Positions 24,761 to 39,262 of a stretch of 64,000 nt of DNA are shown here, piece by piece (position 1 is the first letter of the stretch; the number at the start of each line of letters is the position of its first letter). The position numbers and the translations under genes were made by a program. Origin of the DNA: Reichenbachiella sp. 5M10 (GTDB taxonomy: Bacteria > Bacteroidota > Bacteroidia > Cytophagales > Cyclobacteriaceae). The notes beneath the pieces are model-generated. The model was not told the origin of the DNA. It was given only the letters and a program-made list of their open reading frames with translations, and searched no databases. Where the stretch lies: positions 810,501 to 874,500 of the forward strand of contig NZ_MDGR01000007.1 of the NCBI RefSeq assembly GCF_002742335.1, in the 5' to 3' direction.

Positions 24761-24779
24761 GTAACCCGACCGATAAGTG

Positions 24780-25403
24780 ATGAGAAAATCAAGAAACAGA
24801 AGTAAGCAAACCAACCAGCTCAATCACCTGAAAAACATCATTGCGTTTAGCGAATTGATGCAGGAGTCAGATGCAAACATCGTGTACTTGGGTAAAGTGA
24901 CCCAATCGACCATCGATGGGATCACCGACATGATGGAGGAAAGTATGATCGAACGTCAAGAGAGTCGACAGACAACCAAGCGTGTGTATCATGTGATGAT
25001 AGAGGCACTCCAAAATATATGTAAACACGCTGATAGTACTGCAGATTATGCTTCCAACAGCCTAGAACAGGGATTGGCCAAGGACGGAATCTTTTTGATT
25101 GGCCACAATGAGGAAGAATACTACGTCACCACCGGAAACCAAATCACTACCGAAAACACGATTCGTCTTAGAGATACTCTGGACAAAATCAATGCTCTGG
25201 ACAAAGACGGCTTGCGTGAAATGCATAAACAGGCCATGGCCGGTGGAGAGATTTCTGAAGTAGGAGGTGCTGGTCTAGGGTTTATCGATATCAAGAAGAA
25301 AACAGGTACAGAGTATGAGTATTATTTTGACCCAGTCAGTGCGGACCACTGCTTTTTTATATTGACCATACGAATATTGAAAGAGTCTGTCAAAGACTTT
25401 TAA
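24780..25403 (+). CDS. siaB: SiaB family protein kinase
   Basis: A 207-residue cytoplasmic GHKL-type protein (ATG at 24780; a GTG one codon earlier is possible). It matches the SiaB family (DUF6272) through FSELMQESDANIVYLGKVTQ, an N-box-like MIEALQNICKHADS near residue 80 and a glycine segment EVGGAGLGFIDIKKKTG. In Pseudomonas SiaB phosphorylates SiaC on a threonine, opposed by the PP2C-type phosphatase SiaA. Here siaC follows after 170 bases, with its own likely promoter. No histidine phosphorylation domain is present, as expected for this serine/threonine kinase group. Confidence 0.85.
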   Translation: MRKSRNRSKQTNQLNHLKNIIAFSELMQESDANIVYLGKVTQSTIDGITDMMEESMIERQESRQTTKRVYHVMIEALQNICKHADSTADYASNSLEQGLAKDGIFLIGHNEEEYYVTTGNQITTENTIRLRDTLDKINALDKDGLREMHKQAMAGGEISEVGGAGLGFIDIKKKTGTEYEYYFDPVSADHCFFILTIRILKESVKDF

Positions 25404-25481
25404 CCCTTTTCTGACAGGTGTAAAACTGATCTATTTCAGCTTTACGAGAATCTCCTATTCCCAAAATAGGTAGAATAGCCA

Positions 25482-25513
25482 GTTGTATGCAGGGTATTAG
25501 TTCTCTACATTTG
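25482..25513 (+). promoter_or_regulatory. promoter of the siaC-chemosensory operon
   Basis: TACATTTG at 25506-25513 matches the -7 consensus TAnnTTTG, with GTTG at 25482-25485, 20 bases upstream, as a -33 element. It lies 60 bases before siaC. A small hairpin, AGGAC/GTCCT near 25540-25560, lies in the leader. No other good promoter is seen before the terminator at 39.2 kb. Confidence 0.5.
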
Positions 25514-25573
25514 TGCTAGCAGTAGAATAAATGTTTCACCGTAGGACAGGCCGTCCTGCAAACCTCAAATGCT

Positions 25574-25978
25574 ATGGATGGATATTTCATTAGAGCAACA
25601 GGGTCCACACCGTCGATTGAGTTTAGTCCTTCCAAAGGACTCTTGGAGATCACCGGGGTATCGACTCCTGACGATCCTTTGAGTTTTTATGGTCATATTT
25701 TTAGCCTTTTGCACGAATTCGAAAGTTCAAACAACAAAGAAATCGTGGTGAATTTTGGCTTAAAAAATATGACTGGATCCACTACCTATATTTACATCCT
25801 TGTCAAAAAATTGATTTCTCTGACGAATGACAACCGAAAGGTTACATTCAACTGGTACTATGAGAAAAACAATGAAAAAATACTAGAAACCGGCAAGGAG
25901 ATCAGCCAGCATTACCAGCATCCGTTCAATTACATAGGTGTTTTCAAAATAAAACAATCCTTGAGGCAGGCTAGCTAA
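25574..25978 (+). CDS. siaC: SiaC family regulatory phosphoprotein
   Basis: A 134-residue protein of the SiaC family (DUF1987), which adopts an anti-sigma-factor-antagonist-like fold. Family marks are ATGSTPSIEFSPSKGLLEIT and the NFGLKNMTGSTTYIYILVKK segment, whose Ser/Thr cluster at residues 67-71 matches the site phosphorylated by SiaB in Pseudomonas. In that system unphosphorylated SiaC binds and activates the diguanylate cyclase SiaD. No GGDEF protein is present here, so its partner must be something else, possibly the receiver-pseudophosphatase two genes downstream. It heads a run of twelve closely spaced genes. Confidence 0.87.
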   Translation: MDGYFIRATGSTPSIEFSPSKGLLEITGVSTPDDPLSFYGHIFSLLHEFESSNNKEIVVNFGLKNMTGSTTYIYILVKKLISLTNDNRKVTFNWYYEKNNEKILETGKEISQHYQHPFNYIGVFKIKQSLRQAS

Positions 25979-26043
25979 AAGTTTGTTCCTGTTTTGGTGA
26001 ATATTTTTCTTTCTACTGCTACATTTAAGAAAAGAAAAGTATT

Positions 26044-27333
26044 GTGAAGAGTAAGAAGTTCCCGTTTATTTTATTGATGTCCCTTCTAGTTGCTACAGAG
26101 GGGATATCCCAGACCGCCTCTCCTGAGACTGCTCAGGCATCGTCATCGACGTTGTACATGGTCATATCCATTATCTTGTTCATAGCTTTGGTCATTGGCG
26201 CTGTGATAGCCATTGGCAAGCTGAAGCATATCAAATTTCTGGAAGCCGAAAATCAGAAGATCGAAGGGCGATTTAGAAAACAATTGGATCAGCTCAACGA
26301 TGAATTGAAGGAATCGAGAGTTCAAGGACAAGGCCTCTATCAGAAGCTTCAGGGCCTCAATAGCAAGAACAAAGAGATTAAGCAGGTCTTCAAGGAGGCA
26401 TATGACAAAGTCATCGCTCAAAATACCGAGCTCAAGGGCCGTCTAGGAGTCAATCAAAAAGGAGGAAACCAGACAGAAATCGAAAAGATATACGACAAGC
26501 TTGAAGATGCGCAGGCTATGGTCCTCCATTCGGAGAAAATGGCTTCTCTTGGTCAGCTGACGGCTGGTATTGCACATGAGATCAACAATCCGGTAAACTT
26601 CGTGTCCAACGGGGTGAATTCGATCAAAGAGAACTTTGAGAAATATCAGCTATTCATAGAAAATTACCGCACGATCTGTGAGCAAGAGACGATAGAAGAA
26701 GTCAAGAAGCTATACAAATCCATTCGTGACGATGACAAGGAATACCAGGAGCTTCGCACCTTGACTGAAGAGTCTATTGATGATGTGAGTTATGGAACAA
26801 GTCGTATTACAGAAATTGTCAATGGTTTGAGAATATTTTCTCGTCAGGATGAGCATGAAGTCAAAGAAGCAGAAATCGGGACTATCATTGACAATGCCTT
26901 GTTGATTCTCAAACCGAAGTATAAGAAAAAGGCCAAGATCCTCAAGGACTTTGATCATAATCTCAAGGCTATAAAATGTCTGCCGGGACAGTTGAATCAG
27001 GCATTGGTCAATCTCATTGGGAATGCTGCAGATGCGATTGACTTCAAAGGTACGATTACCATCCGTACCGTAGACAAGGACGCCGACAATATCCAGATTC
27101 AAGTTCAGGATGACGGGAAGGGTATCCCGGAAGAAGTGCGGAAAAAGATTTTTGACCCATTTTATACCACAAAACCTGTGGGGAAAGGTACAGGGCTTGG
27201 GCTCTCGATCACCTATAGCATCATTGATAAACACGGTGGTACTATAGTCGTGGACAGTACTGAAGGCAAAGGAACTGTGTTTACCGTGACTATCCCTAAA
27301 AAAATCAAACTCAAGAAAAGCAGAAACGCGTAA
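26044..27333 (+). CDS. membrane-anchored sensor histidine kinase
   Basis: A 429-residue protein with a GTG start. It has a signal-like N-terminus, one more membrane helix (about residues 38-60), then a long coiled coil (residues 65-150), so it has essentially no periplasmic sensor domain. The dimerisation domain has H178 in TAGIAHEINNPVNFV. The ATPase domain has the N-box LVNLIGNAADAI, G1 DDGKGIPEEV and the F/G2 boxes FDPFYTTKP and GTGLGLSI. The next gene, 21 bases on, starts with a receiver domain and is its likely phosphorylation target. Confidence 0.9.
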   Translation: MKSKKFPFILLMSLLVATEGISQTASPETAQASSSTLYMVISIILFIALVIGAVIAIGKLKHIKFLEAENQKIEGRFRKQLDQLNDELKESRVQGQGLYQKLQGLNSKNKEIKQVFKEAYDKVIAQNTELKGRLGVNQKGGNQTEIEKIYDKLEDAQAMVLHSEKMASLGQLTAGIAHEINNPVNFVSNGVNSIKENFEKYQLFIENYRTICEQETIEEVKKLYKSIRDDDKEYQELRTLTEESIDDVSYGTSRITEIVNGLRIFSRQDEHEVKEAEIGTIIDNALLILKPKYKKKAKILKDFDHNLKAIKCLPGQLNQALVNLIGNAADAIDFKGTITIRTVDKDADNIQIQVQDDGKGIPEEVRKKIFDPFYTTKPVGKGTGLGLSITYSIIDKHGGTIVVDSTEGKGTVFTVTIPKKIKLKKSRNA

Positions 27334-27354
27334 CCTACAAACACCGAATAAACT

Positions 27355-28641
27355 GTGGAAAACCTACTCAATCGCTCATATAAGACAGAAATAGAAAAGA
27401 AGTATACGGTTTTGTATGTAGATGATGAAGAGGTCAATTTGCGTGTATTCAATCGGAATTTCAGCAAGTACTATCACGTACTGACTGCAATAGATGCTTT
27501 TGAAGCGCAAAATGTATTGGCAGCCAATAAGGTGGATTTGATCATGACGGATCAATGTATGCCTCGAATGAACGGCTCGGAACTACTGATCAAAATTGTG
27601 CCTCAGTATCCAGATATTATTCGAATGATCATGACGGGGTTCAGTGACGAGCAGGACATTAGTGATGTGGAAGAGAAGGTGGGATTGCACCGGTTTTTGA
27701 AGAAACCGTGGGACCCGAACCAACTGCGAGCGGAGTTTGATAGTGCGCTCGAATTGCGAGAGGAGGGACTCGTAGAGAAGCAACCCACACCTCGAAAGAA
27801 AAGCGCGCCCGCTGCTACAAAGAAAGACACGAGTATTGATTTGTTGGAGTCGACTATGTCGCTGATCGAGACCAACGAGACACGTCAACTCAAAAAGGAT
27901 ATCAACAATCTGGTCAAAGAATCAAAAACAAAGCGTTCGGAATTCATGGATGGAGGAATCAATTACCTCATGAATCTAAAGGATGCCATGTTGCCGATTC
28001 AACAGGAGCTGAAACTCTACACGGATGATTCATTTGTCGTGTATGACAAAAATGGAATGAACCAAAACGGGTATTGGTTTGGCGAACAGGATGATTGTTT
28101 GGTGATCGCTTCGTATCATTCCAATACGCATACTCGAGAGTCATTGGCACTCAATTCTTTTGTCAGCGCGATGCTGACCGAGATTGTTTACAAAGAGGAA
28201 TGTATTCAGCCTGATGAGATAATCAAGAGGCTGTCGACACGTATACAAGTGCGGTTTTTGGACAAAAACAATGAGCATTCCTGTCCGCTGGACATAGCAG
28301 TATTGGTGTATGACAAGGACAGAGAAAAAGTGACACATTCGGGGGCGTACCATGACGTGTATTTGCTCAATGACCGCAATGAGTTCAAGGTGTTGAAGGG
28401 TAATCAGGAAGTATTGGTGCCAGGTAAAGAGACCGTATATGACGTGAATAGTCTGAGTGCTGAGCAAATCAATGCGATTTATATTGTGCCATTCAATATC
28501 ATCGAGGCAACAAATGATAACAAAAACGATGCAGGAGCGCTAAAAATGCTTTTGAGCGAAGTACATAAATTCCCGTTTGGTATGCAGGCCAAGATGTTTG
28601 TGGATTATGGATACCGAAGCGTCATAGGAATAAAAATGTAA
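27355..28641 (+). CDS. receiver domain fused to a degenerate PP2C-like domain
   Basis: A 428-residue fusion (GTG start). Residues 15-130 are an intact receiver: acidic pair D23/D24, phospho-acceptor D66 in LIMTDQCMPRMNG, T94 and K117. A Lys/Ala-rich linker follows. Residues 195-428 keep the framework of SpoIIE/SiaA-type PP2C phosphatases: AMLPIQQELK, YW at 240-241, PLDIAVLVYD at 311-320, HSGAYHDVYLL and a C-terminal VIGIKM. Every metal-ligand position appears lost: the GDFYW aspartate is N238, the D of DCTGHG is S253 with GHG gone, and the late SDG and DD sites are missing. It is probably a phospho-regulated pseudophosphatase that binds SiaC. Confidence 0.75.
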   Translation: MENLLNRSYKTEIEKKYTVLYVDDEEVNLRVFNRNFSKYYHVLTAIDAFEAQNVLAANKVDLIMTDQCMPRMNGSELLIKIVPQYPDIIRMIMTGFSDEQDISDVEEKVGLHRFLKKPWDPNQLRAEFDSALELREEGLVEKQPTPRKKSAPAATKKDTSIDLLESTMSLIETNETRQLKKDINNLVKESKTKRSEFMDGGINYLMNLKDAMLPIQQELKLYTDDSFVVYDKNGMNQNGYWFGEQDDCLVIASYHSNTHTRESLALNSFVSAMLTEIVYKEECIQPDEIIKRLSTRIQVRFLDKNNEHSCPLDIAVLVYDKDREKVTHSGAYHDVYLLNDRNEFKVLKGNQEVLVPGKETVYDVNSLSAEQINAIYIVPFNIIEATNDNKNDAGALKMLLSEVHKFPFGMQAKMFVDYGYRSVIGIKM

Positions 28642-28662
28642 TGGACCGACAGAATAGATAAA

Positions 28663-29259
28663 ATGGAAAAGGAACTCGTGGCAAAACAAGATATGAATAC
28701 TGGTAAATCAGGCTTGTCTGATGCTGAGAAATTGAAATTGATCAATGACACGGCCAGCGCCGTGAAGGAGATCAATTCGCTCGACTCGGAGAGTAGATTG
28801 AAAGATGAGCATGAGGAGACGGTAATGTTGGTGGCATTTAGTGTAGGGAATGAAGAGTATGCTTTGACGATAGATCAGATCAAAGAAGTAGTCTCTTGTC
28901 CTCCGATTGCACCAGTGCCTCAAGTGCCGAGTTTTGTAAAGGGTGTGGCCAATGTACGAGGCAATGTTCTTGCAATCATTGATTTGTCGATCAAATTTGG
29001 ATTAGATCAGCAAGGAGAACAAGGCAAGTTTGTACTGGTGATGAAAAGTGAAGAATTGAAGTTTGCAATCAGTGTCAATGCTGTGCCCAATACGATGATG
29101 GTCAAGAGAAGTGAAATCTCTCAAGCGACGAACATCATCAACCAAACAACACTCGGGTTGAACTATGTCAAAGGAATAGTGAGAAGGGATCAAAGGATAG
29201 TGGTCTGGGTGGACATCATTGACATCATGGAAAATGAAGAATTAGGCGATAATAAATAA
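28663..29259 (+). CDS. cheW: CheW-type coupling protein (first copy)
   Basis: A 198-residue protein in which residues about 50-195 form a CheW domain ([51 protein letters not shown]). The first 45 residues are a charged helical extension. It would bridge the chemoreceptor encoded next to the CheA kinase encoded 6 kb downstream. It lies 21 bases after the pseudophosphatase gene and eight bases before the receptor gene. Confidence 0.93.
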
Positions 29260-29267
29260 CAACAAAA

Positions 29268-32200
29268 ATGCTAAATGACATGAACATTAGGAGAAAGATG
29301 ATCTTTCTCGTTCTAGGTGTGACGCTAGGTATCTATGCCGTCACACTGACCTATGTTGGCTACAACATGAGGGAAAAGTCTATTCAGGATGCTGAGAAAT
29401 TGGTCAACTCCGTAGCTATCCAAAAATCCAATGAAGTCAAGGCTAGCTTAGATGATGTCATGTCTTCGGCGAGAGCGATGGCTGTGATTGTTCGCGATTA
29501 TGCTGATTTGCCTCGCGGACAGAGGGTCCAGTTGCAGGACAACCTCTTGTTCAATGTCTTGGAAGAGTACCCTATCTATGAATCCACATGGATGAGTTGG
29601 GAGCTGAGTGCGATAGATACGGCTTGGACCAAAACTTACGGTAGGGAGCGTACCACTTGTTATTTAGAAAATGGAGTTAGAAAAAAGGTGGTGACCCAAC
29701 TCAACTTAGATGGTGACGATGAAGGGAGCCTCTATCTTGATACCAAGATCAAACTGAAAGAAACGATCTCTCCGCCTTATACATACGAAGATTACGACCT
29801 CAATTCTGACAAAGTGATTCTTGGGATTTCTCCGATTGTACCCATTATCTCCAAAGAAGGAGAGTATATGGGGCAAATAGGAACGGATATGTCACTCGAC
29901 CAGTACAAACAGATGACTGCCTTTGATGGTTTTGATCAGGGGTATACCTTTTTGACTGCTTATGATGGGACGATTGTTTCTCACCCCAACGAAGCATTGA
30001 TCAATACCAATATCCAAGAATTGGAGATCAATCAATCTCTAGGTTTTAATCTTCTAGATAAAATCCATGAAGCCGAATTCACAAGTTTTACGGTAGATGA
30101 TAAAGTCTTGGGTGACAAAGTCTATATGGCGCTTTCGCCTCTCAATATGGGAAGGGTAGAGAGGCCATGGATGATTGCGACGGTGGTTCCCTATGATGAG
30201 ATCACCAATTCTTTTGTTCAGACGCTTCGGATTACGATTCTCGTAGGGGTTTTAGGGCTGATTCTATTGACGTTTATTGTTTATAGATACTCGAACCAAA
30301 TCACGGTAGCGATCGAACGGACTCACCGCGTGCTGCAGTTGTTGTCGTTGGGGCAGTTGGATTCCAGTGAGTTGGAAATTGATAACAGAAATAACGAGCT
30401 GAGTCAAATGCAGTCTCTGATGAACAAACTCATCGTTGATCTCAAAGAAAAGACGGCTTTTGCTCAATCGATAGGGCAGGGAGAACTCGACAGGGAGTTT
30501 AGTGCCTCGAGTGAAAGCGACGAATTAGGGATGGCATTGCTGCAGATGCGTGACAACCTCAACGCTACTTTGGTAGATACCCAGGCAGTCATCGTAGATG
30601 CTGGAGAGTATGGTAAACTGTCTTCACGAATCAATATCGAAGGAAAAACAGGGGCTTGGTCTGATTTGGGTGAGTCGATCAACACGCTCTTAGAGTCGTT
30701 TTATAGACCTCTGATGCGATTTAGTCGTATTCTCAACGCCATGTCTACCGGAGATTTGACTATGAGATATGCGGACAATGCCAAAGGCGATATCAAATCC
30801 ATGGCTGACAACCTCAACCTTGCACTCAGTAATCTTGATGGTTTGATACATCAGATATCTCAAAGTGCCATGTTTGTAGATGAGTCGTCTATAGAGATGA
30901 AGTCTTCGAGCGAAGAGATGAGTACCAATACCCGGGAGATTGCCTCGGCGATTTCTCAGATGAGTCATGGTGCTCAGACTCAGGTGTCCAAAGTGGATGA
31001 GTCTTCCAACCTCATCGAAGAAATTTTGGCTTCATCTACTCAAATGGGAGAGAAGGCAGAAACAATCAATGAAGCGGCAAAAGCTGGTTTGGAGAGTAGT
31101 GAAAAGGGAATGGAGATGGTCAAAAAGGTCGTTTTCAATATGGGGGATATTTCAGCCTTTTCAAACCAAACCAACGATTCGATCAAGGTGTTGGCCGAAC
31201 GTTCCAAAGAAATTGCTCGCGTATTGGGGGTCATTACCGATATTGCTTCTCAGACTAATTTGCTGGCCCTGAATGCGGCGATCGAAGCAGCACAGGCAGG
31301 AGACGCAGGACGTGGATTTGCAGTGGTTGCAGAGGAGATTAGGAAGCTCGCAGAAGATTCTAGAAAGTCGGCTCAGGAAATTGAGAAGTTGGTCACGGAC
31401 GTACAATCCGATACCATGAGTGCTACCAAAGTGATTGAGATCATGATGAGTAGTGTAGAGAGTGGAGAGAAGACTTCCAAAGAAGCTGCACAGGTTTTTG
31501 AGCGAATACTCAATGCATCCAACGAGACGTTGAGCTACTCTGAGGAAATATTGAATTCTGCCAAAGGGCAAACTGAAGGAATCAACAATGTGGTGACTAT
31601 CATCGAGGGAGTAGTAGTGATAGCAGAGCAAACCGCTGCTGGGACCGAGGAGGTTGCTAGTTCGGCGACTGAACTGTCCTCTGGTATGGATACATACAAT
31701 GAAAAATCTCAAAAGCTGGCAGAGATTGCTGAGACGCTGAAAGAGGGGATTAGTATGGTGAAACTCTCAGGTACGGCGTCTGAAAATACAGCGATCTTTA
31801 AAATGAAGGAGGCTTATGAGAAAGAAAAGTATCTGTTGGATGCATTGCTCAATCACATGCCAGACAAGATCTATTTCAAGGATCTAGAGAGTAAATTTAT
31901 TAGAAATAGTGTCTCTCATGCGAAGCAATTTGGACTGGAGAGTCCAGCTGAGCTCGTAGGGAAGAGTGATTTTGACTTTTTTGGCGACCATGCCAAAATT
32001 GCTTACGAGGAAGAGCAAGAGATTATCCGTACCAGAGTGCCGGTATTGAATAAGGTGCAGAAGGAGGATATGGCAAATGGCAAGGTAGGGTATGGGTCTT
32101 CTACCAAAATACCACTGATAGATCTGGACGGCAATGTAGTAGGGACATTTGGAATCACTCGTGATGTGACGGACATGAAGGAGTCTGAGTTGCGAGCGGC

Positions 32201-32618
32201 AGGACAGACACAGGAACTCAAAGAAAAGGAAGAAGCATATCTAAAGGAGAAGTCACTATTGGATGCATTGTTGAATTACATGCCTGATGCCATATATTTC
32301 AAAGACTTGAATAGTAAATTCATTCGAGCGAGTAAATCAGTGGCGCAGTACTTTGGCAAGAATGATCCTAAGGATATCATAGGTAAGTCAGATTTAGACT
32401 TCTCTGAGGATGCACGTGAAGCCTTCGAAGGTGAACAAGAAATCATTCGTACAGGAAAACCAAGCCTCAATGTCATCTCGAAAGAGAAAAACCCTGATGG
32501 TAGCTACAGATACGTGTCGAATAATAAAATGGTATTGAAGGACGTGGATGGAAAAGTCATCGGTACGATGGGTATTTCGAGAGATGTGACGGACACTATA
32601 GACGAAAGTAAAAAATAA
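29268..32618 (+). CDS. mcp: chemoreceptor with dCache, HAMPs and C-terminal tandem PAS
   Basis: A 1116-residue methyl-accepting chemotaxis protein. Order: membrane helix (about 11-32), periplasmic dCache-type sensor (35-320), second helix (324-344), two or more HAMP units (345-580), signalling coiled coil with the tip [20 protein letters not shown] and [17 protein letters not shown] (about 655-690). After this come two PAS domains (about 850-980 and 990-1110) that repeat [15 protein letters not shown] and [18 protein letters not shown] domains after the signalling domain are unusual, since sensors normally precede it. The Cache domain probably binds a small ligand; the PAS domains could sense a cytoplasmic cue. 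Confidence 0.92.
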
Positions 32619-32623
32619 GGCCA

Positions 32624-33373
32624 ATGATCATCACAGTAATTAATCAAAAAGGAGGAACGGGCAAAACGACTACATCAGTCAATTTGGGGTGTGCTTTGGC
32701 ATATGCCAAAAAGAAGGTGCTGTTGGTGGATCTCGATCCCCAGGGCAACCTGAGCTATTGGTTGGGAATCAGTGATCCAGCGCATACCATGGCCGAAGTG
32801 ATGATGGAAGAGATTGCTCTTGAGGACATCTTGCACGAGAGAGAAGGATTGAAGGTGGCTCCATCGGACATGCATCTCGCAGATGTAGAGATCAATATCG
32901 CTAGTGTAGAGAATCGAGAGTCTGTTTTGAAAAGGGCATTGATACCTCTAGCGGATCAGTATGATTATGTCATCATTGATTGTCCCCCTTCGTTGTCTCT
33001 GCTGACTGTCAACGCTCTATCAGCTACAGACAAAGTCATCGTGCCCTTACAGATGGAGGTGCTGAGTTTGCAAGGCTTGGATCAAATAGTCAACAGTATA
33101 GACCGGATCAAAGGAGTACTGAATGACAAGATAGAGATTTTGGGTCTGCTGCCTGTGATGGTAGATAGTAGAAGAAAATTGAGTAGGGAGATACATGAAT
33201 ACATTGACGAAAACTACGATTTGAAAATATTCAAAAGCAAGATTCGTAGCAATGTCCGTGTGAGTGAAGCTCCTTCTTTTGGGGAAAGTGTGTTGAGCTA
33301 TTCTCCATCTTCCAATGGAGCAGAGGATTACAAAGCCTTTGCCAAAGAAATTATTCGTTTAACGAAGAACTAA
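32624..33373 (+). CDS. parA: ParA-family ATPase of the chemosensory cluster
   Basis: A 249-residue MinD/ParA-type ATPase with the deviant Walker A motif NQKGGTGKTTTSVNLG, Walker A' LLVDLDPQGN and Walker B YVIIDCPPSL. It lacks the N-terminal DNA-binding domain of plasmid ParA proteins. Its place between the chemoreceptor and a CheW gene recalls ParC of Vibrio and PpfA of Rhodobacter, which position chemosensory arrays in dividing cells. Spacing to both neighbours is under six bases. No parB or parS is present, so chromosome segregation is unlikely. Confidence 0.9.
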   Translation: MIITVINQKGGTGKTTTSVNLGCALAYAKKKVLLVDLDPQGNLSYWLGISDPAHTMAEVMMEEIALEDILHEREGLKVAPSDMHLADVEINIASVENRESVLKRALIPLADQYDYVIIDCPPSLSLLTVNALSATDKVIVPLQMEVLSLQGLDQIVNSIDRIKGVLNDKIEILGLLPVMVDSRRKLSREIHEYIDENYDLKIFKSKIRSNVRVSEAPSFGESVLSYSPSSNGAEDYKAFAKEIIRLTKN

Positions 33374-33377
33374 AGTT

Positions 33378-34421
33378 ATGCCACTAGGAAAAAACTTGAA
33401 GAAAGACACCTTGATTCCTTCAGAAAAGAAGGAGGAGAAGCAAGAGGCTGTGGCGCATACGACCTCTAGTCCGAAGGCTAAGAAACGGGGGGATTCTAAA
33501 GCTGCCAAAAAAGCTACCCCGAAAGCCAAGGCAAAAAAGGCCAGTCCACCTAAGAAAAAGACTGCCAAGGAGAGTGCAAAAAAGAAAGTGGAAGACAAGT
33601 CTATACAGAAAGCAGTTGTGTCGGAAGAAGAGAAGTTGACACCGGGGCAATTGGCTGCTTTGGTTTTAGAGGAGGAGGATAAAAAAAGAGCACAAGAAGA
33701 ATCGGAAAAGGCTGCAGTCAAAGAAAAGGAGGTGGCTGAGCCAGTTGTGACCAAAGAAGATTCGGTATCCGTGGATGTGGATATTGTGCCCGCTGTAGCA
33801 CCTATGCATCGCAAGCAAGAGTCTCCACAGCAGTCGCAGACTCGTGAGCTCGTTCGTCAGAAAATTGGAACGGTCAAGTACCTCACCGAAGAGGAGTACC
33901 AAGAGAAGAAACGACTCAAGGATAAGTTTGATGAAGAAATCAAAGGCTACTCAGGTAAGGATGTCCAGCTTATTGTCTTCAAGATGGGAGGGGAGAGATA
34001 CGCCATTGAGATTGATAGGATCAAAGAAGTCGTACATACACCACGTATATCTAAAATACCTCATGCGCCCGACTTCATCAAAGGGGTAGGAAACGTACGA
34101 GGATCAGTGATGGTCGTGCTGGATCTTGGGTTGAAATTCGGGATAGACGAAAGTACAGAGACCAAGCAGTTTATCTTGGTCATCCACAATGATGAATTCA
34201 AAGCGGGTATACTGGTGGATGAGGTGCCATTGGCAATGAAAGTGCCAGGAGACAACATCGTGAGTTCATCAGGACTGTTGAGAAATACCTCACTAGACGA
34301 GACCTACATCAAAGGAATAATCAAAACCGAGCAGGATATGATTATATTCATAGATATAGCAGAGCTTGTGCAAGAGGATGAAGTAAGTATAATTTCCCAA
34401 TCATTGCTTGGGACAGCCTAA
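33378..34421 (+). CDS. cheW: CheW coupling protein with lysine-rich N-terminal tail
   Basis: A 347-residue protein. Residues 1-75 are highly basic and disordered, with histone-like stretches such as KKATPKAKAKKASPPKKK, then an acidic region to about residue 145. The CheW domain fills about 190-340 (VFKMGGERYAIEIDRIKEVV, VRGSVMVVLDLGLKFG, TYIKGIIKTEQ). ParA partners often carry a short basic N-terminal tail that stimulates its ATPase, and this gene lies four bases after parA, so the tail may link the array to ParA. Binding of DNA or polyanions is another option. Confidence 0.9.
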   Translation: MPLGKNLKKDTLIPSEKKEEKQEAVAHTTSSPKAKKRGDSKAAKKATPKAKAKKASPPKKKTAKESAKKKVEDKSIQKAVVSEEEKLTPGQLAALVLEEEDKKRAQEESEKAAVKEKEVAEPVVTKEDSVSVDVDIVPAVAPMHRKQESPQQSQTRELVRQKIGTVKYLTEEEYQEKKRLKDKFDEEIKGYSGKDVQLIVFKMGGERYAIEIDRIKEVVHTPRISKIPHAPDFIKGVGNVRGSVMVVLDLGLKFGIDESTETKQFILVIHNDEFKAGILVDEVPLAMKVPGDNIVSSSGLLRNTSLDETYIKGIIKTEQDMIIFIDIAELVQEDEVSIISQSLLGTA

Positions 34422-34432
34422 AGGATAAGGAA

Positions 34433-35467
34433 TTGAATAAAATTCGAGTAGTAGTAGCAGATGATTCAGGGTTTATGAGATTATTGATCTCTGACATATT
34501 GACTGAGAGCGGGAGTGTTGAGGTGGTAGGTACCGCCATCGATGGCAAAGATGCTGCCCTTAAGGTAGCAGAGCTTCAGCCTGATGTATTGCTGCTTGAT
34601 ATGAATATGGGGGAGTTTGATGGCTTGTATGCTGTCAAACGTATCATGGAAGAGACTCCTCTACCTATTGTGATTTTGAGTTCGATTGGCAATACCAATC
34701 TGCAGCCGATCTTTGACGCATTGGACTTAGGTGCCGTGGATTATTTGAATAAGCCACAAAAGGGCAATTCAAAGCTCAGAAATATAGAGATGGAGCTCAT
34801 CCAAAAGATCAAGAATGCCAAGCGTGCCAATGCCAAGGCCATTCCAGATCCTCGAGCAAAGGTCAACACCTTTGAGCACACGTTTGCTGAGAAAAGTAAA
34901 TACGATATCATCGTGATAGGGGCGTCTACTGGGGGGCCGAGTGCGATCGAAAAAGTAATCAATTCCTTGCCTGGAAACTTGAATGTACCCGTACTCATCT
35001 GCCAGCATATGCCTCCTAATTTTATCAGTTCGTTTGTCAAGCGTCTCAATGGCATGACTCCACTGCAAATCGAAGTAGGCAGAGAGAATATGAGACCTCA
35101 GGCAGGCAAAATCATCGTAGCGCCAGGTGAATCCAACATGGTAGTGAAGAAGAAAAGAAGCGGGAGCGTGACCATTGGGTTTACGGACGAAGTATTCCCA
35201 GAGTACAACAATCCTTCCATCAATGCATTGATGCTATCTGTAGCGGAGGCTTACAAAGACCGCAGTATTGGGGTGATACTGACAGGGATGGGTAAAGACG
35301 GGATGTTGGGGATGAAGGAAATCAAAAGGCAAGGTGGTTTTACCGTAGCGCAAAGTGAAAAGTCCTGTGTGATCTATGGAATGCCTAAGGCAGCTGTGGA
35401 ACAAAGAGCAGTAGATCGATCCGTCGATATCAAAGAAATAGGAGGATTTTTAGTTAACAGTTTATAA
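34433..35467 (+). CDS. cheB: chemotaxis methylesterase/deamidase CheB
   Basis: A 344-residue protein with a TTG start preceded by an AAGGATAAGG ribosome-binding site. The N-terminal receiver has the acidic pair D10/D11 and phospho-acceptor D56 (VLLLDMNMGEFDG). The C-terminal methylesterase has the catalytic serine in IGASTGGPSAIEKV, the histidine in CQHMPPNF and the aspartate in TGMGKDGMLGM. It removes methyl groups from receptor glutamates when phosphorylated by CheA and opposes CheR, giving adaptation. Confidence 0.95.
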   Translation: MNKIRVVVADDSGFMRLLISDILTESGSVEVVGTAIDGKDAALKVAELQPDVLLLDMNMGEFDGLYAVKRIMEETPLPIVILSSIGNTNLQPIFDALDLGAVDYLNKPQKGNSKLRNIEMELIQKIKNAKRANAKAIPDPRAKVNTFEHTFAEKSKYDIIVIGASTGGPSAIEKVINSLPGNLNVPVLICQHMPPNFISSFVKRLNGMTPLQIEVGRENMRPQAGKIIVAPGESNMVVKKKRSGSVTIGFTDEVFPEYNNPSINALMLSVAEAYKDRSIGVILTGMGKDGMLGMKEIKRQGGFTVAQSEKSCVIYGMPKAAVEQRAVDRSVDIKEIGGFLVNSL

Positions 35468-35477
35468 TACAAAAGAC

Positions 35478-37253
35478 TTGGACTCTAAAGAAGAACAATA
35501 CCGAGATTTATTCCATCAGGAAGCCATTGAGAGCTTTGAGGAACTCAATAGGTTATTTACAGACCTAGAGAAGGATCATAGCAACCAAAGTGCGATCGAT
35601 TCTATATTTAGGATTACTCATACGATCAAAGGCAATGCCATGGGGATGGGGTTTGATGATATTGCGAAACTGTCGCATATCATGGAAGACATCATGGGGG
35701 CAATCAAAAGTGGTGACCTCCAACTCAACAACGAGATATTCGAAGGGTTATTCAAAGCCAATGATAAACTCGGAGACCTTATCGCTGCGCTCAAGTCAGG
35801 AGCGAAAGTGAGTTATCTTGGTATCAAAACGAAATTAGGAGTGGTGTTGAAAAACATCGCTCAGCCCGTAGAGGGACAAGGCAATCAGGAAGAAAAGAAG
35901 GCTCCAGATCCAGTGAAACATTCTACTGCACAAGAATCTGGGTCTACGGAGTCTTCTCCTTCTTCTGATGACGATAAAGATAGCGAAAATGATGAAAGTA
36001 GCTCTCAAACAGAAGAGCAACCTACAATAACATTTACGGATGTCATCCAGATCCCTGTCAAGAAGATGGACGAGCTCATGAATCTCGTGGGCCAGCTCAT
36101 GATCGAACGTGACCGTTTGATCAGTATGAATGGCCAAGCAGGGCGCTCATCAGAGTTCGAAGGGCTACAAAGGATTTCTTCGGATCTCCAGTACAGCGTG
36201 ATGAATGCACGGATGGTGCAGGTAGGGTTCTTGTTCAACAAGTTTCACCGAATTGTACGGGACGTTGCGCATATCGAGAAGAAACATGTCGATCTAGTGA
36301 TCAAAGGTACGGATGTAGAAATCGATCGAAATATCCTCAAAATCATGAGTGATTCGATGATTCACCTAGTCAGGAATGCAGTGAGTCATGGTATCGAGAC
36401 AGAGGACAAGCGTGTCTCCCGAGGCAAGAAGAAGTCAGGGACAGTGACGCTCAATGCACGCTATGAACGTGACAATGTAGTCATAGAAGTATCGGATGAT
36501 GGGAATGGGATCGATGCTCAGGTCATCAAGAAAAAGGCCATCGAAAAGGGACTCTTGAGAGCGGAGGTTGCAGACCAATTGTCTGAAAATGAGCTGATCA
36601 TGTATATCTTCGAACCTGGGTTTTCTAATGCCGAGACGATTACAGAGATCTCTGGTCGGGGAGTTGGGATGGATGTAGTGAAGCGGGCCACCGAATCGAT
36701 AGGAGGACAGATTTCTGTATCGACGGATGTAGGCAAGGGTTCCACAGTCAATTTGATCTTGCCTTCGTCAATGGCTCTCAAAGGGGCTTTACTCTTTGAG
36801 GTAGATGCACACGAGTATGCTGTACCACTGACCTATACTGAAGCAGTAGTCTCTTTGCCAAAAAGTGAGATACACAAAATAGGAGACGGTTTGATGGCCA
36901 ATTATTTGGAGGATACGATCTCTATTGTGTTTTTGAGGGACTTTTTAGAAGCAGATAAATTGACAGATTTGGCAGAAACAGGTGCGTTGCACCGCAGTTT
37001 TGACCAAATAGAAAATCAAGACTTAGATGTGATTGTTGTGTCTTATATGGGTAAATTAGTAGGCCTTGTAGTGGACAAACTATTGCAGCAAAAGGAAATA
37101 TTAGAGAAATCATTGGCTCGACCACTGGATCAAGTGAGATTGTTGAGCGGATCTACCATTTTAGGTAATGGTAAGGTCTGTTTGATCGTGGATGTGGCGG
37201 CCATCACCGAGTTGTTGTTCAAGACGATGACTCAAAATGCTACAATGAAATAA
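35478..37253 (+). CDS. cheA: chemotaxis histidine kinase CheA
   Basis: A 591-residue kinase with a TTG start. P1 carries the phosphorylated H48 in ITHTIKGNAMGMG. A 100-residue acidic Ser/Gln-rich linker replaces the P2 regulator-binding domain. P3 dimerisation, P4 ATPase (HLVRNAVSHGIE, DDGNGID, GRGVGMDVV) and P5 CheW-like domains follow. Lack of P2 suggests direct phosphotransfer from P1 to CheB, CheY or other receivers. Spacing of ten bases from cheB supports cotranscription. Confidence 0.95.
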   Translation: MDSKEEQYRDLFHQEAIESFEELNRLFTDLEKDHSNQSAIDSIFRITHTIKGNAMGMGFDDIAKLSHIMEDIMGAIKSGDLQLNNEIFEGLFKANDKLGDLIAALKSGAKVSYLGIKTKLGVVLKNIAQPVEGQGNQEEKKAPDPVKHSTAQESGSTESSPSSDDDKDSENDESSSQTEEQPTITFTDVIQIPVKKMDELMNLVGQLMIERDRLISMNGQAGRSSEFEGLQRISSDLQYSVMNARMVQVGFLFNKFHRIVRDVAHIEKKHVDLVIKGTDVEIDRNILKIMSDSMIHLVRNAVSHGIETEDKRVSRGKKKSGTVTLNARYERDNVVIEVSDDGNGIDAQVIKKKAIEKGLLRAEVADQLSENELIMYIFEPGFSNAETITEISGRGVGMDVVKRATESIGGQISVSTDVGKGSTVNLILPSSMALKGALLFEVDAHEYAVPLTYTEAVVSLPKSEIHKIGDGLMANYLEDTISIVFLRDFLEADKLTDLAETGALHRSFDQIENQDLDVIVVSYMGKLVGLVVDKLLQQKEILEKSLARPLDQVRLLSGSTILGNGKVCLIVDVAAITELLFKTMTQNATMK

Positions 37254-37277
37254 TGTTTTACAAAAACCATAAACGGT

Positions 37278-37913
37278 ATGTTTAGCGATTTGACTGAAAA
37301 TGAAAAAGGCATAGCAGAAAGGCTGATGAAGTTTGGGCTTGCCAAGGGCGCGCTGTCCTTAGAAATGATGGTCGGCTCTCCCGTGGTGATGAAAAATGTG
37401 GAATTGGGGTTGCCTAGTGTAAAGGGCGTACACCAATATACCAACAAAGAGGATCAAAAACTCTATCTGCTCAAAACTGAGCTGGTGGGAGACCTCAAGG
37501 GATTTTGTCACCTCATCTTTTCTGAGGAGGATGTCCACAAGGTTCAAACCAAATGCTTGCCTCCAGATATCATGGAAGGCAACAATTCTCAAAGTAGATT
37601 GATGAAGCTGGAGTTCATGACAGAGATAGACAACATGGTCGCGGGCTCTGTCGTTACGCAGTTGGCTAATTATCTCAATCTTGAAGTATACGGGAATGTG
37701 CCTATTTTGACGACCATGCAAGCAGCTGAGGCCAATAGCCACATCGATGCTGAGTCTGTGGATCACAATTCGACTCATCTAGTCAAAACAGTATATCACG
37801 TTCCTGAATTGAATATTTTTGCGGAATTTGTGTGGCTGTTTCAAGACAGATTTATCGAGCTGATCTCGGAGTTTGCTTCCAGCGAAAAGGCGAAAGAATT
37901 TGTTGCTATATAA
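37278..37913 (+). CDS. CheC/CheX-like phosphatase
   Basis: A 211-residue protein whose middle resembles the CheC/CheX/FliY fold: EIDNMVAGSVVTQLANYLNL followed by VYGNVPIL. The phosphatase motif S/D-x3-E-x2-N is present in part, with E116 and N119, but a glutamate stands at the S/D position. Such proteins dephosphorylate CheY-P. Only one of the two repeats seen in CheC is clear, so it is closer to CheX. It lies between cheA and cheR and probably terminates the CheY signal in place of CheZ. Confidence 0.65.
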   Translation: MFSDLTENEKGIAERLMKFGLAKGALSLEMMVGSPVVMKNVELGLPSVKGVHQYTNKEDQKLYLLKTELVGDLKGFCHLIFSEEDVHKVQTKCLPPDIMEGNNSQSRLMKLEFMTEIDNMVAGSVVTQLANYLNLEVYGNVPILTTMQAAEANSHIDAESVDHNSTHLVKTVYHVPELNIFAEFVWLFQDRFIELISEFASSEKAKEFVAI

Positions 37914-37952
37914 GTGGTCTATTGGTTCAAACTATAATCTAACTGTAATCGC

Positions 37953-38780
37953 GTGGTAGAAAGTATATCAGATGAAGAGTTGAATGCTTTGATGCAGGCG
38001 ATGAAAAATAGGTATGGGTTGGACTTTACCAATTACGAGAAAAAGTCCTTCAAGAGAAGTATCGTCAGATTGATGATGAAGCACAAAATCGGGTCGATGC
38101 TCGAGTTGTGGTCTAGGATTTTGAAGGATAAGCAGTTTTTCTTGGATGGTATCGACGACTTATTGGTCAACTTGACCGAATTGTTTCGAAACCCCGATGC
38201 ATGGATAATGATTCGAGACCAGATTTTGGACAAGTTCAAAAACAAGTCTCAACTGAAAATCTGGCATGCGGGATGTTCGACTGGAGAGGAAGTATTTACC
38301 ATGAGTATGGTATTGGATGACAAAGGGATGCTTTATAAAACCAAATCGCTAGCTACTGATTTGAGTGATGCAGCTCTGAGCAAAGCAAAAAATGGAGTGT
38401 ATTCGCTCATGATAATGAAGCAATATCTAAGACCATTTTTGGAATACTATCCTAATAGGAAAATGGATGACTTTTTTGAATTTAAAGAGAAGGATGCCGT
38501 CATCAAGGATACGTACAAAAAGCACGTGACCTTTAAAAAGCATAATTTGGTTCAAGATCAAGTCCATGAGAAATTTGATATAATCTTTTGTCGAAATGTT
38601 ATGATATATTTTGACGAAACTTTGAAATTAAAAGTGCTAAACTTGTTCAATGATTGTTTGAACGAGGGAGGCTATTTGGTAATAGGGTATTATGATATCA
38701 TGCCGGATGGAGGAAAGCAGATATTTGATACTTATGATGTTAAAACAAGAATTTACAAAAAGAAAATAATTAAATATTGA
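37953..38780 (+). CDS. cheR: chemoreceptor methyltransferase CheR
   Basis: A 275-residue SAM-dependent methyltransferase with a GTG start. The N-terminal helical domain precedes a Rossmann domain with the SAM motif IWHAGCSTGEEVFTMSMVLD and the IIFCRNVMIYFDE segment typical of CheR. There is no tetratricopeptide extension. It methylates glutamates on the chemoreceptor, countered by CheB. It follows the phosphatase gene by 39 bases and precedes cheY by four. Confidence 0.95.
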   Translation: MVESISDEELNALMQAMKNRYGLDFTNYEKKSFKRSIVRLMMKHKIGSMLELWSRILKDKQFFLDGIDDLLVNLTELFRNPDAWIMIRDQILDKFKNKSQLKIWHAGCSTGEEVFTMSMVLDDKGMLYKTKSLATDLSDAALSKAKNGVYSLMIMKQYLRPFLEYYPNRKMDDFFEFKEKDAVIKDTYKKHVTFKKHNLVQDQVHEKFDIIFCRNVMIYFDETLKLKVLNLFNDCLNEGGYLVIGYYDIMPDGGKQIFDTYDVKTRIYKKKIIKY

Positions 38781-38784
38781 GCTT

Positions 38785-39144
38785 ATGAGCAAGAGAATAT
38801 TAGTAGTAGACGACTCTATGTACATGCGCACGTTGATCAAGGATGCACTATCCAATGAGGGATTCGAAATAGTAGGAGAAGCTCCGAATGGAGAAACTGC
38901 TATTGACCTAGCGATGGAGCTGAAGCCAGATCTAATCACTCTTGACAACATCCTGCCGGACATGATCGGTACGGACATCTTGAGAGTGTTGATGGACGAA
39001 GGATTGGAGTCCAAAGTTATCATGGTAAGTGCTGTGGGACAACAGTCTGTGATCAATGAAGGAATTGAACTAGGAGCATCAGATTATATTGTTAAGCCGT
39101 TTACGGCGGACGATTTGGTCGATGTAGTCAAGAAGCATATATAG
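38785..39144 (+). CDS. cheY: CheY-type response regulator
   Basis: A 119-residue single receiver domain. The acidic pair is D9/D10, the phospho-acceptor aspartate lies in LITLDNILPD, and the switch residues are serine in MVSAVGQ and the lysine in IVKPF. It would carry the CheA signal to an unidentified output. With no flagellar motor genes in sight, the target could be the gliding machinery or another regulator. It is the last gene before a strong terminator. Confidence 0.93.
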   Translation: MSKRILVVDDSMYMRTLIKDALSNEGFEIVGEAPNGETAIDLAMELKPDLITLDNILPDMIGTDILRVLMDEGLESKVIMVSAVGQQSVINEGIELGASDYIVKPFTADDLVDVVKKHI

Positions 39145-39189
39145 TCTCAGAGCATCGATCCACTGGATCGTGTGTGGAAATACTGGCAA

Positions 39190-39217
39190 TCACCTCCGAT
39201 AGCGATCGGTGAGGTGA
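39190..39217 (+). other. imperfect hairpin after cheY
   Basis: TCACCT-CCGAT pairs with ATCGG-TG-AGGTGA around the loop AGCG, leaving a two-base bulge. It stands 14 bases before a true terminator and may act as a 3'-end stabiliser or a protein-binding RNA element. Confidence 0.45.
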
Positions 39218-39230
39218 TTTGTCGTATCAA

Positions 39231-39262
39231 AAACCTTGTCAGTCAACTGGCAAGGTTTTTTT
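39231..39262 (+). terminator. terminator of the chemosensory operon
   Basis: A 12-pair stem (arms 39231-39242 and 39247-39258, one G-T pair) with a TCAA tetraloop is followed by a run of T residues. It is a good rho-independent terminator for the siaC-to-cheY transcript. Confidence 0.88.

Follow-up and report, generated by a model that had tools for sequence, protein, structure and literature searches.

A possibly rewired Sia partner switch in a genus-conserved chemosensory operon of Reichenbachiella

How might a Sia partner switch operate if both its phosphatase and the phospho-acceptor motif of its switch protein appear to be lost, and what is such a switch doing in a chemosensory operon? 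The question is raised by thirteen genes of Reichenbachiella sp. 5M10, all of them open reading frames on the + strand, that lie in the window analysed here, a stretch of 64,000 nucleotides (C7:810501-874500) of a 4.64 Mb genome of the genus Reichenbachiella. The first two, siaB (24780..25403, +) and siaC (25574..25978, +), are separated by 170 bases and encode a SiaB-family GHKL-type Ser/Thr kinase and a STAS-like switch protein; 65 bases further on begins a run of eleven genes, spaced at 4-39 bases, that opens with a histidine kinase (26044..27333, +) and a receiver-PP2C fusion (27355..28641, +) and, after a set of chemosensory genes, closes with cheY at 39144. An earlier note on this DNA had described the layout correctly. 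It had also proposed a working Ser/Thr switch, which is not supported in that form, since SiaC too lacks the known phospho-acceptor motif. What the sequences suggest instead, at a little less than an even chance, is a Sia partner switch that has been rewired within the operon of a chemosensory array, is conserved in the genus and works by receiver-gated binding.

The sections of PMC7647112 that treat SiaC of Pseudomonas aeruginosa give T68 as its phosphorylation site, and those of PMC8457831 on the SiaC-SiaD complex have N67, T68 and S69 touching the stalk of SiaD. The motif NT(S/A)(S/T) occupies this site in 36/36 other SiaCs that were aligned (30 from the best-scoring loci of relatives, the two further SiaCs of this genome at L106 and L107, G014, G042, G021 and P. 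aeruginosa). Outside the genus, che-linked searches yielded 14 sia loci (che genes are visible in 13 of them and not in L242), and 16/16 of their SiaCs have the NT motif, with NTTS allowed, as do all 19 SiaCs found in the 20 top-scoring SiaC loci. Seven other genomes of the same genus were found among 79 relatives searched, making eight with our own (further, unsearched species may exist), and the che-linked SiaCs of all eight lack NT(S/A): there is a one-residue deletion, five have TGSTT and three EDS(S/T)T, and an ungapped alignment places Gly at the phospho-acceptor site of the 5M10 protein. That protein belongs to the SiaC family by fold (PF09345 at 90.4 bits, cut-off 24.5): all eight matches of its structural model (predicted local distance difference test, pLDDT, 85.1) with E values up to 0.001 are SiaC chains, and Foldseek gives a TM-score of 0.78 to P. 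aeruginosa SiaC (6kko). The equivalog NF038265 is not reached (53 of 150). SiaB is likewise a member of its family (NF038262 at 143.5 bits, cut-off 85), with the GHKL motifs of the N-box and G-box intact, and falls short of the narrower equivalog NF038264 (60.8 of 225); its ATG start at 24780 matches the congeners better than GTG at 24777.

The cluster encodes a single PP2C-like domain, that of the fusion protein, and it can scarcely be recognised as such (SpoIIE, E 0.051). Its SGD, D..GHG, DG, SDG and C-terminal DD motifs are all lost in 8/8 genomes (a receiver-only row, window_60396, being left out of the motif table), which bears out the claim of the earlier note that the sole PP2C-like domain is degenerate and fused to a receiver. 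Elsewhere the motifs are retained in 11/11 PP2Cs of che loci (L184 has GG for DG). Of the paralogues in the same genome, that of L105 has intact motifs and that of L108 degenerate ones; the PP2Cs of L109 and L110 are partly degenerate. The losses are identical in eight genomes, which rules out a frameshift or an assembly artefact as their cause. Motif patterns for the histidine kinase, receiver, ParA, CheA, CheB, CheC/X, CheR and CheY match the rows of the genus with few misses (the histidine kinase N-box in L099/L119, which are one genome; the CheA G1 box in L100; the first SiaB motif in the clipped L101). Foldseek, given the model of the receiver/pseudo-PP2C protein (mean pLDDT 64.5), returns P. 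aeruginosa RssB at the top, followed by other RssB entries and by the PP2C domain of SiaA. The architecture, a receiver with an intact Asp site joined to a PP2C fold without catalytic motifs, would thus be of the RssB type, as far as a model of such low confidence allows.

The order siaB-siaC-histidine kinase-receiver/PP2C-cheW-mcp(1-3)-parA-cheW-cheB-cheA-cheC/X-cheR-cheY recurs in 8/8 Reichenbachiella genomes examined, and in the seven other than our own the receiver/PP2C and CheC/X genes lie ~9-15 kb from each other. (One genome is represented by a re-fetched neighbourhood, L119, its first region having stopped before siaC; siaB of L101 is clipped by the edge of its stretch.) The search for conserved gene order that the earlier note had called for thus rules out an arrangement peculiar to this genome. 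The closest che-linked SiaCs are in records of R. agariperforans, R. versicolor and R. faecimaris. Identity to the three closest congeners is 90-93% for SiaB and 92-94% for SiaC, compared with 71-74% for receiver/PP2C and 83-85% for CheA; the lowest values within the genus are 60% for SiaC, 46% for receiver/PP2C and 64% for CheA. Since their identity to the congeners exceeds that of receiver/PP2C and CheA, SiaB and SiaC are constrained rather than decaying; they rank near the top of the operon in conservation, and a decaying module is ruled out.

Because the phosphatase and phospho-acceptor motifs have been lost together and the two-component pair is intact, the simplest reading would be that phosphorylation of the receiver controls binding. 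The histidine kinase would phosphorylate the receiver, the state of which would set whether the pseudo-phosphatase holds or frees SiaC (or SiaB); binding gated by an Asp-phosphate, as in the RssB adaptor, would then substitute for Ser/Thr dephosphorylation. The target of freed SiaC, or of SiaB without SiaC, would be the array or the motility machinery; a diguanylate cyclase encoded in this genome is an unlikely one for want of a GGDEF match. A fuller version of the proposal, in which a non-phosphorylatable SiaC, held by the kinase/receiver-gated pseudo-phosphatase, controls a ParA-positioned array that steers gliding, the whole being a derived branch of an undescribed Sia-chemosensory pathway of the class Bacteroidia, is doubtful.

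Against receiver-gated binding weigh, besides the scarcity of linkage outside the genus, whether sampled from che loci or from the best-scoring SiaCs, several further points. A gapped alignment keeps Thr at the SiaC site in 5/8; S69 and T71, beside the lost motif, are invariant in the seven Reichenbachiella SiaCs aligned, and, with Ser/Thr persisting so near, phosphorylation may simply have moved. SiaB retains its ATP site and so presumably still has some substrate; in 5/8 the PP2C motif GMD preserves its second Asp, and the confidence of the receiver/PP2C model is low. A Ser/Thr switch may accordingly persist, with SiaB phosphorylating SiaC at S69 or T71, a PP2C encoded elsewhere reversing the reaction and the local pseudo-PP2C modulating it. 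A candidate for the missing phosphatase exists in the same genome: the intact receiver-PP2C paralogue at C7:1465503-1466789 (L105:3503-4789), which is part of a stand-alone module (L105:3503-7904) of siaB, a coiled-coil protein with a hydrophobic stretch, a histidine kinase and the receiver-PP2C protein, with no siaC beside it. This alternative has to contend with the loss of a motif common to all the other aligned SiaCs and with the Glu-Asp that takes its place in 3/8, and it leaves unexplained why a dead PP2C should be retained in the operon; we judge it rather doubtful.

Outside the genus the association of Sia with che genes is recurrent, not general. Type-1 CheA occurs in 125 of 390 genomes; 50 of its loci outside the genus were fetched, several clipped by contig ends, and siaB or siaC was found in two of them, L123, where the che operon ends cheR-PP2C-siaC, and L128, where siaB-siaC-cheR-cheB stands ~6 kb from cheA. 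There are no sia genes in any of the 30 loci fetched for type-2 CheA (22 of the 390 genomes), and no che core gene near any of the 20 top-scoring SiaC loci (the stretches of L224, L234 and L235 are shortened by contig ends), where receiver-like matches number two in L233 (210 and 118 residues) and one in L223. These counts rule out a general linkage of Sia to che genes in the order. Neighbourhoods chosen from the PP2C side, 13 in all with three PP2Cs of che loci as query, have siaB, siaC and che genes jointly in eight (L206-L212, L214). The order cheR-cheB-X-PP2C-siaB-siaC, with X a protein of 200-300 residues, is found in five of the 13 (L208, L210, L211, L212 and L214) and also in L241; X is GAF-like in the two instances tested, one below cut-off, and most such blocks have a ~1020-residue protein after siaC, which proved to be an ABC transporter in both instances tested, L206 and L210. 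Proteins of ~300 and ~150 residues often follow these blocks as well. L115, fetched by its CheC/X gene, ends cheB-cheC/X-PP2C-siaB-siaC. From the SiaB side, 13 of the 20 best-scoring genomes outside our own have a CheR match, and in seven (G606, G079, G637, G125, G024, G569 and G464) SiaB lies 10 kb or less from CheR, the chance expectation, by a rough hand estimate, being well under 1. G079 has the block cheR-cheB-X-PP2C-siaB-siaC and G606 an MCP-like (methyl-accepting chemotaxis protein) gene followed by PP2C-siaB-siaC with CheRs close by; the stretch of G577 is too short to judge.

Three further features of these loci may be recorded. N-terminal to the phosphatase domain, the motif TNxHLxxATxRER(E/D) is common to the PP2Cs of che loci (L115:11209-12186, L123:16948-17910, L184:1765-3099, L206 and L207); a 380-residue SiaB protein with two SiaB matches is encoded at L209:7847-8989 and L210:10714-11856; and at L206:8353-9494 and L207:8143-9290 siaB occurs as a side-by-side pair whose upstream member lacks the GGAGLG box.

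In a tree of 37 SiaB rows, from which the L101 fragment was excluded, the seven Reichenbachiella SiaBs group with che-linked SiaBs of L115, L208, L211 and L212 with support 96/94, and Reichenbachiella and che-linked SiaBs together make up one side of a branch (93/91), with the exception of L128, which was omitted from the group. The SiaB of the operon therefore belongs to a clade that is often found near chemosensory genes elsewhere in Bacteroidia. Common ancestry with the stand-alone module of the same genome, tested as a grouping with L105/L109/L110, is ruled out by an approximately unbiased test (p 0.009; the groups were chosen after the first tree). The SiaC tree (45 rows) places the Reichenbachiella SiaC, on a long branch of 2.09, with the solitary SiaCs of the 5M10 genome, L106 (97/88) and L107 (95/93). 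Solitary here means without siaB; these copies (L106:8592-9224 and L107:8759-9289) have an intact NTSS motif, and that of L107 lies ~3 kb from an MCP-like gene. Joining the Reichenbachiella SiaC to the che-linked SiaCs gives p 0.075 and is not rejected (L128, L233, L107 and one of the two L208 SiaCs were omitted from that group), and the arrival of SiaC together with SiaB from the che-linked clade is not favoured. With SiaB thus falling in with the che-linked clade and SiaC with the solitary copies, the Sia module may be a chimera.

These results also bear on the possibility that the Sia genes and the histidine kinase/receiver pair form a separate pathway that has only its expression in common with the che genes. 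Two other genera of the same family do split the parts, with the same che core but no sia genes in L112 and L113 and a separate histidine kinase-receiver/PP2C pair beside siaB-siaC in L109 and L110; the 170-base siaB-siaC gap holds a promoter-like element; and SiaC is frequent among the relatives (57/79 genomes), with no che core gene near its 20 top-scoring loci. Shared expression alone is made unlikely by the tight packing from the histidine kinase to cheY, by the conservation in 8/8 genomes and by the presence of the SiaB clade near che genes in other families.

E. coli RssB is an adaptor and a pseudo-phosphatase that acts on sigma-S. That the receiver/pseudo-PP2C protein is likewise an adaptor, one that delivers some protein to a protease and has SiaC for its anti-adaptor, is highly improbable: its best solved-structure matches are indeed RssB, including the IraD- and IraM-bound forms, but the match may mirror nothing beyond the receiver-plus-PP2C architecture, and the model is of low confidence.

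Where the operon is transcribed from, and to what effect, can be approached from the same genomes. The promoter-like element in the siaB-siaC gap (25480..25525, +; TACATTTG at 25506) has the form TTG-N-TAnnTTTG, which we take to be the Bacteroidota-type promoter consensus. It is found in five of the eight genomes and not in L098, L101 or L119, and no promoter signal shared by the whole set was found; no such element lies between siaC and the histidine kinase gene in any of the eight scanned. On that account the main transcript may begin with siaC and not with siaB. TAnnTTTG also occurs upstream of siaB of 5M10, the + strand of the whole window having 27 copies of it, and a sigma-70 scan was close to chance (35 found, 30.2 expected). 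As to the output, the Pseudomonas one would be absent, since there is no GGDEF match in the genome, which agrees with the earlier note's failure to see a cyclase and disfavours a diguanylate cyclase as the target; of the 11 genomes searched for GGDEF, 10 have no match, the exception being G001. Gliding machinery is present, GldL being found in 11/11 genomes searched. PMC10752948 presents three new Reichenbachiella isolates as gliding, and a table row of it is marked + in six columns, not all of them identified; the introduction of the same paper describes the genus as non-motile. Gliding or another surface behaviour is, on this circumstantial evidence, plausible as the likeliest output.

The remainder of the cluster is a chemosensory array in full. 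Pfam and NCBIfam domain searches covered ten of the thirteen proteins; cheB, cheA and cheY were named from their translations, a CheW search and motifs. The histidine kinase was assigned by domain search and motifs and has one transmembrane region and no recognised sensor domain. The first cheW (28663..29259, +; PF01584) is followed by a chemoreceptor (29268..32618, +; domain search and motifs) with a dCache-like domain (a match below cut-off), HAMP, an MCP signalling domain, two C-terminal PAS domains and two transmembrane segments. The number of receptors at this place differs among species, from one to three (L098, L099, L101). A ParA-type ATPase in ParC-like position with Walker A intact (32624..33373, +) adjoins a second, ParP-like CheW with a ~190-residue Lys/Ala-rich N-terminal extension (33378..34421, +). 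The second CheW begins M(A/P)(L/I)GKN(L/V)KKD.LIP (33378-33420) in 8/8 genomes of the genus, near-identically in G014; a similar start also stands on some first CheWs. This N-terminus is possibly a ParA-contact peptide, and the two proteins, which resemble the ParC/ParP pair, are likely an array-positioning pair. There follow cheB (34433..35467, +; receiver and methylesterase, GASTGGP), cheA (35478..37253, +; CheW-like domain, HPt and HATPase, alignment and motifs), a CheC/CheX-type protein that is a probable CheY-P phosphatase (37278..37913, +; ExxN-x22-P motif, CheC/CheX similarity under the Pfam cut-offs, E 0.0018), cheR (37953..38780, +; PF01739, 156 bits) and the single-domain receiver cheY (38785..39144, +). 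By domains and motifs the CheA/W/B/R/Y set, receptor, ParA and CheC/CheX-like protein listed in the earlier note are thus all present. A second, different che cluster lies outside the window (G000 C7:1447575-1457909; L104:4575-14909) and contains receivers, a larger CheA, two CheWs, a divergent receptor, CheR, a histidine kinase, CheB, a CheC/X-like protein and, judged by eye, a CheD-like one.

Among open-licence papers we found no report of SiaB or SiaC with che genes in Bacteroidota, none on the target of SiaC in that phylum and none tying chemosensory arrays to gliding there; a 2026 gliding review is without CheY or CheA. A conserved operon that unites a Sia switch with an array puts a compact set of genes within reach of experiment, in marine gliders that can be cultured. 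Nature may also provide here an example of a phosphorylation switch that has apparently become one of binding, and intact relatives exist with which to compare it.

The locus resembles SiaABCD of P. aeruginosa, a switch that controls biofilm formation, as presented in the relevant parts of PMC7647112 and PMC8457831, in having a SiaB-family kinase beside a protein of SiaC fold, with a PP2C-fold partner. Unlike SiaABCD, the cluster has no PP2C bearing catalytic motifs, its SiaC lacks the T68-type motif, its genome lacks a GGDEF match and a full che operon is attached. RsbY of Bacillus cereus is an active phosphatase controlling sigma-B, and the RsbK-RsbM-RsbY system to which it belongs is not known to include array genes. 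That system, in the account given in sections of PMC4574943, likewise has a histidine kinase, a receiver-PP2C protein and a methyltransferase feeding a partner switch. A phosphorelay into a partner switch is also what the HptB-HsbR-HsbA portion of PMC7647112 describes for P. aeruginosa; there HsbA promotes a diguanylate cyclase, whereas here none was found and the PP2C is without catalytic motifs. RssB (PDB 3f7a, 3eq2, 6od1 and 8t85) shares the joining of a receiver to a PP2C fold; the Reichenbachiella protein is instead encoded among siaB, siaC and che genes. The Hmp locus of Nostoc punctiforme combines chemotaxis-like hmpA-F with a partner switch, hmpU-W (PMC6495340 and PMC8256260, in the parts that concern it), but HmpV is a STAS protein, the switch proposed is one of phosphorylation and the motility is that of type IV pili, in contrast with the SiaC family, a dead-looking phosphatase and a Bacteroidota host. 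In Vibrio, by the passages of PMC5706961 on ParC/ParP, a ParA-type ATPase is likewise followed by an N-terminally extended CheW-like protein inside the che operon; unlike that of Vibrio ParP, the N-terminus of the second CheW is Lys-rich and not proline-rich. A comparison within the class is given by the cheR-cheB-X-PP2C-siaB-siaC block of other Bacteroidia, whose SiaB falls in the same clade (L208, L210-L212 and L214) and stands beside chemosensory modification enzymes and which, unlike the Reichenbachiella operon, retains the motifs of both PP2C and SiaC.

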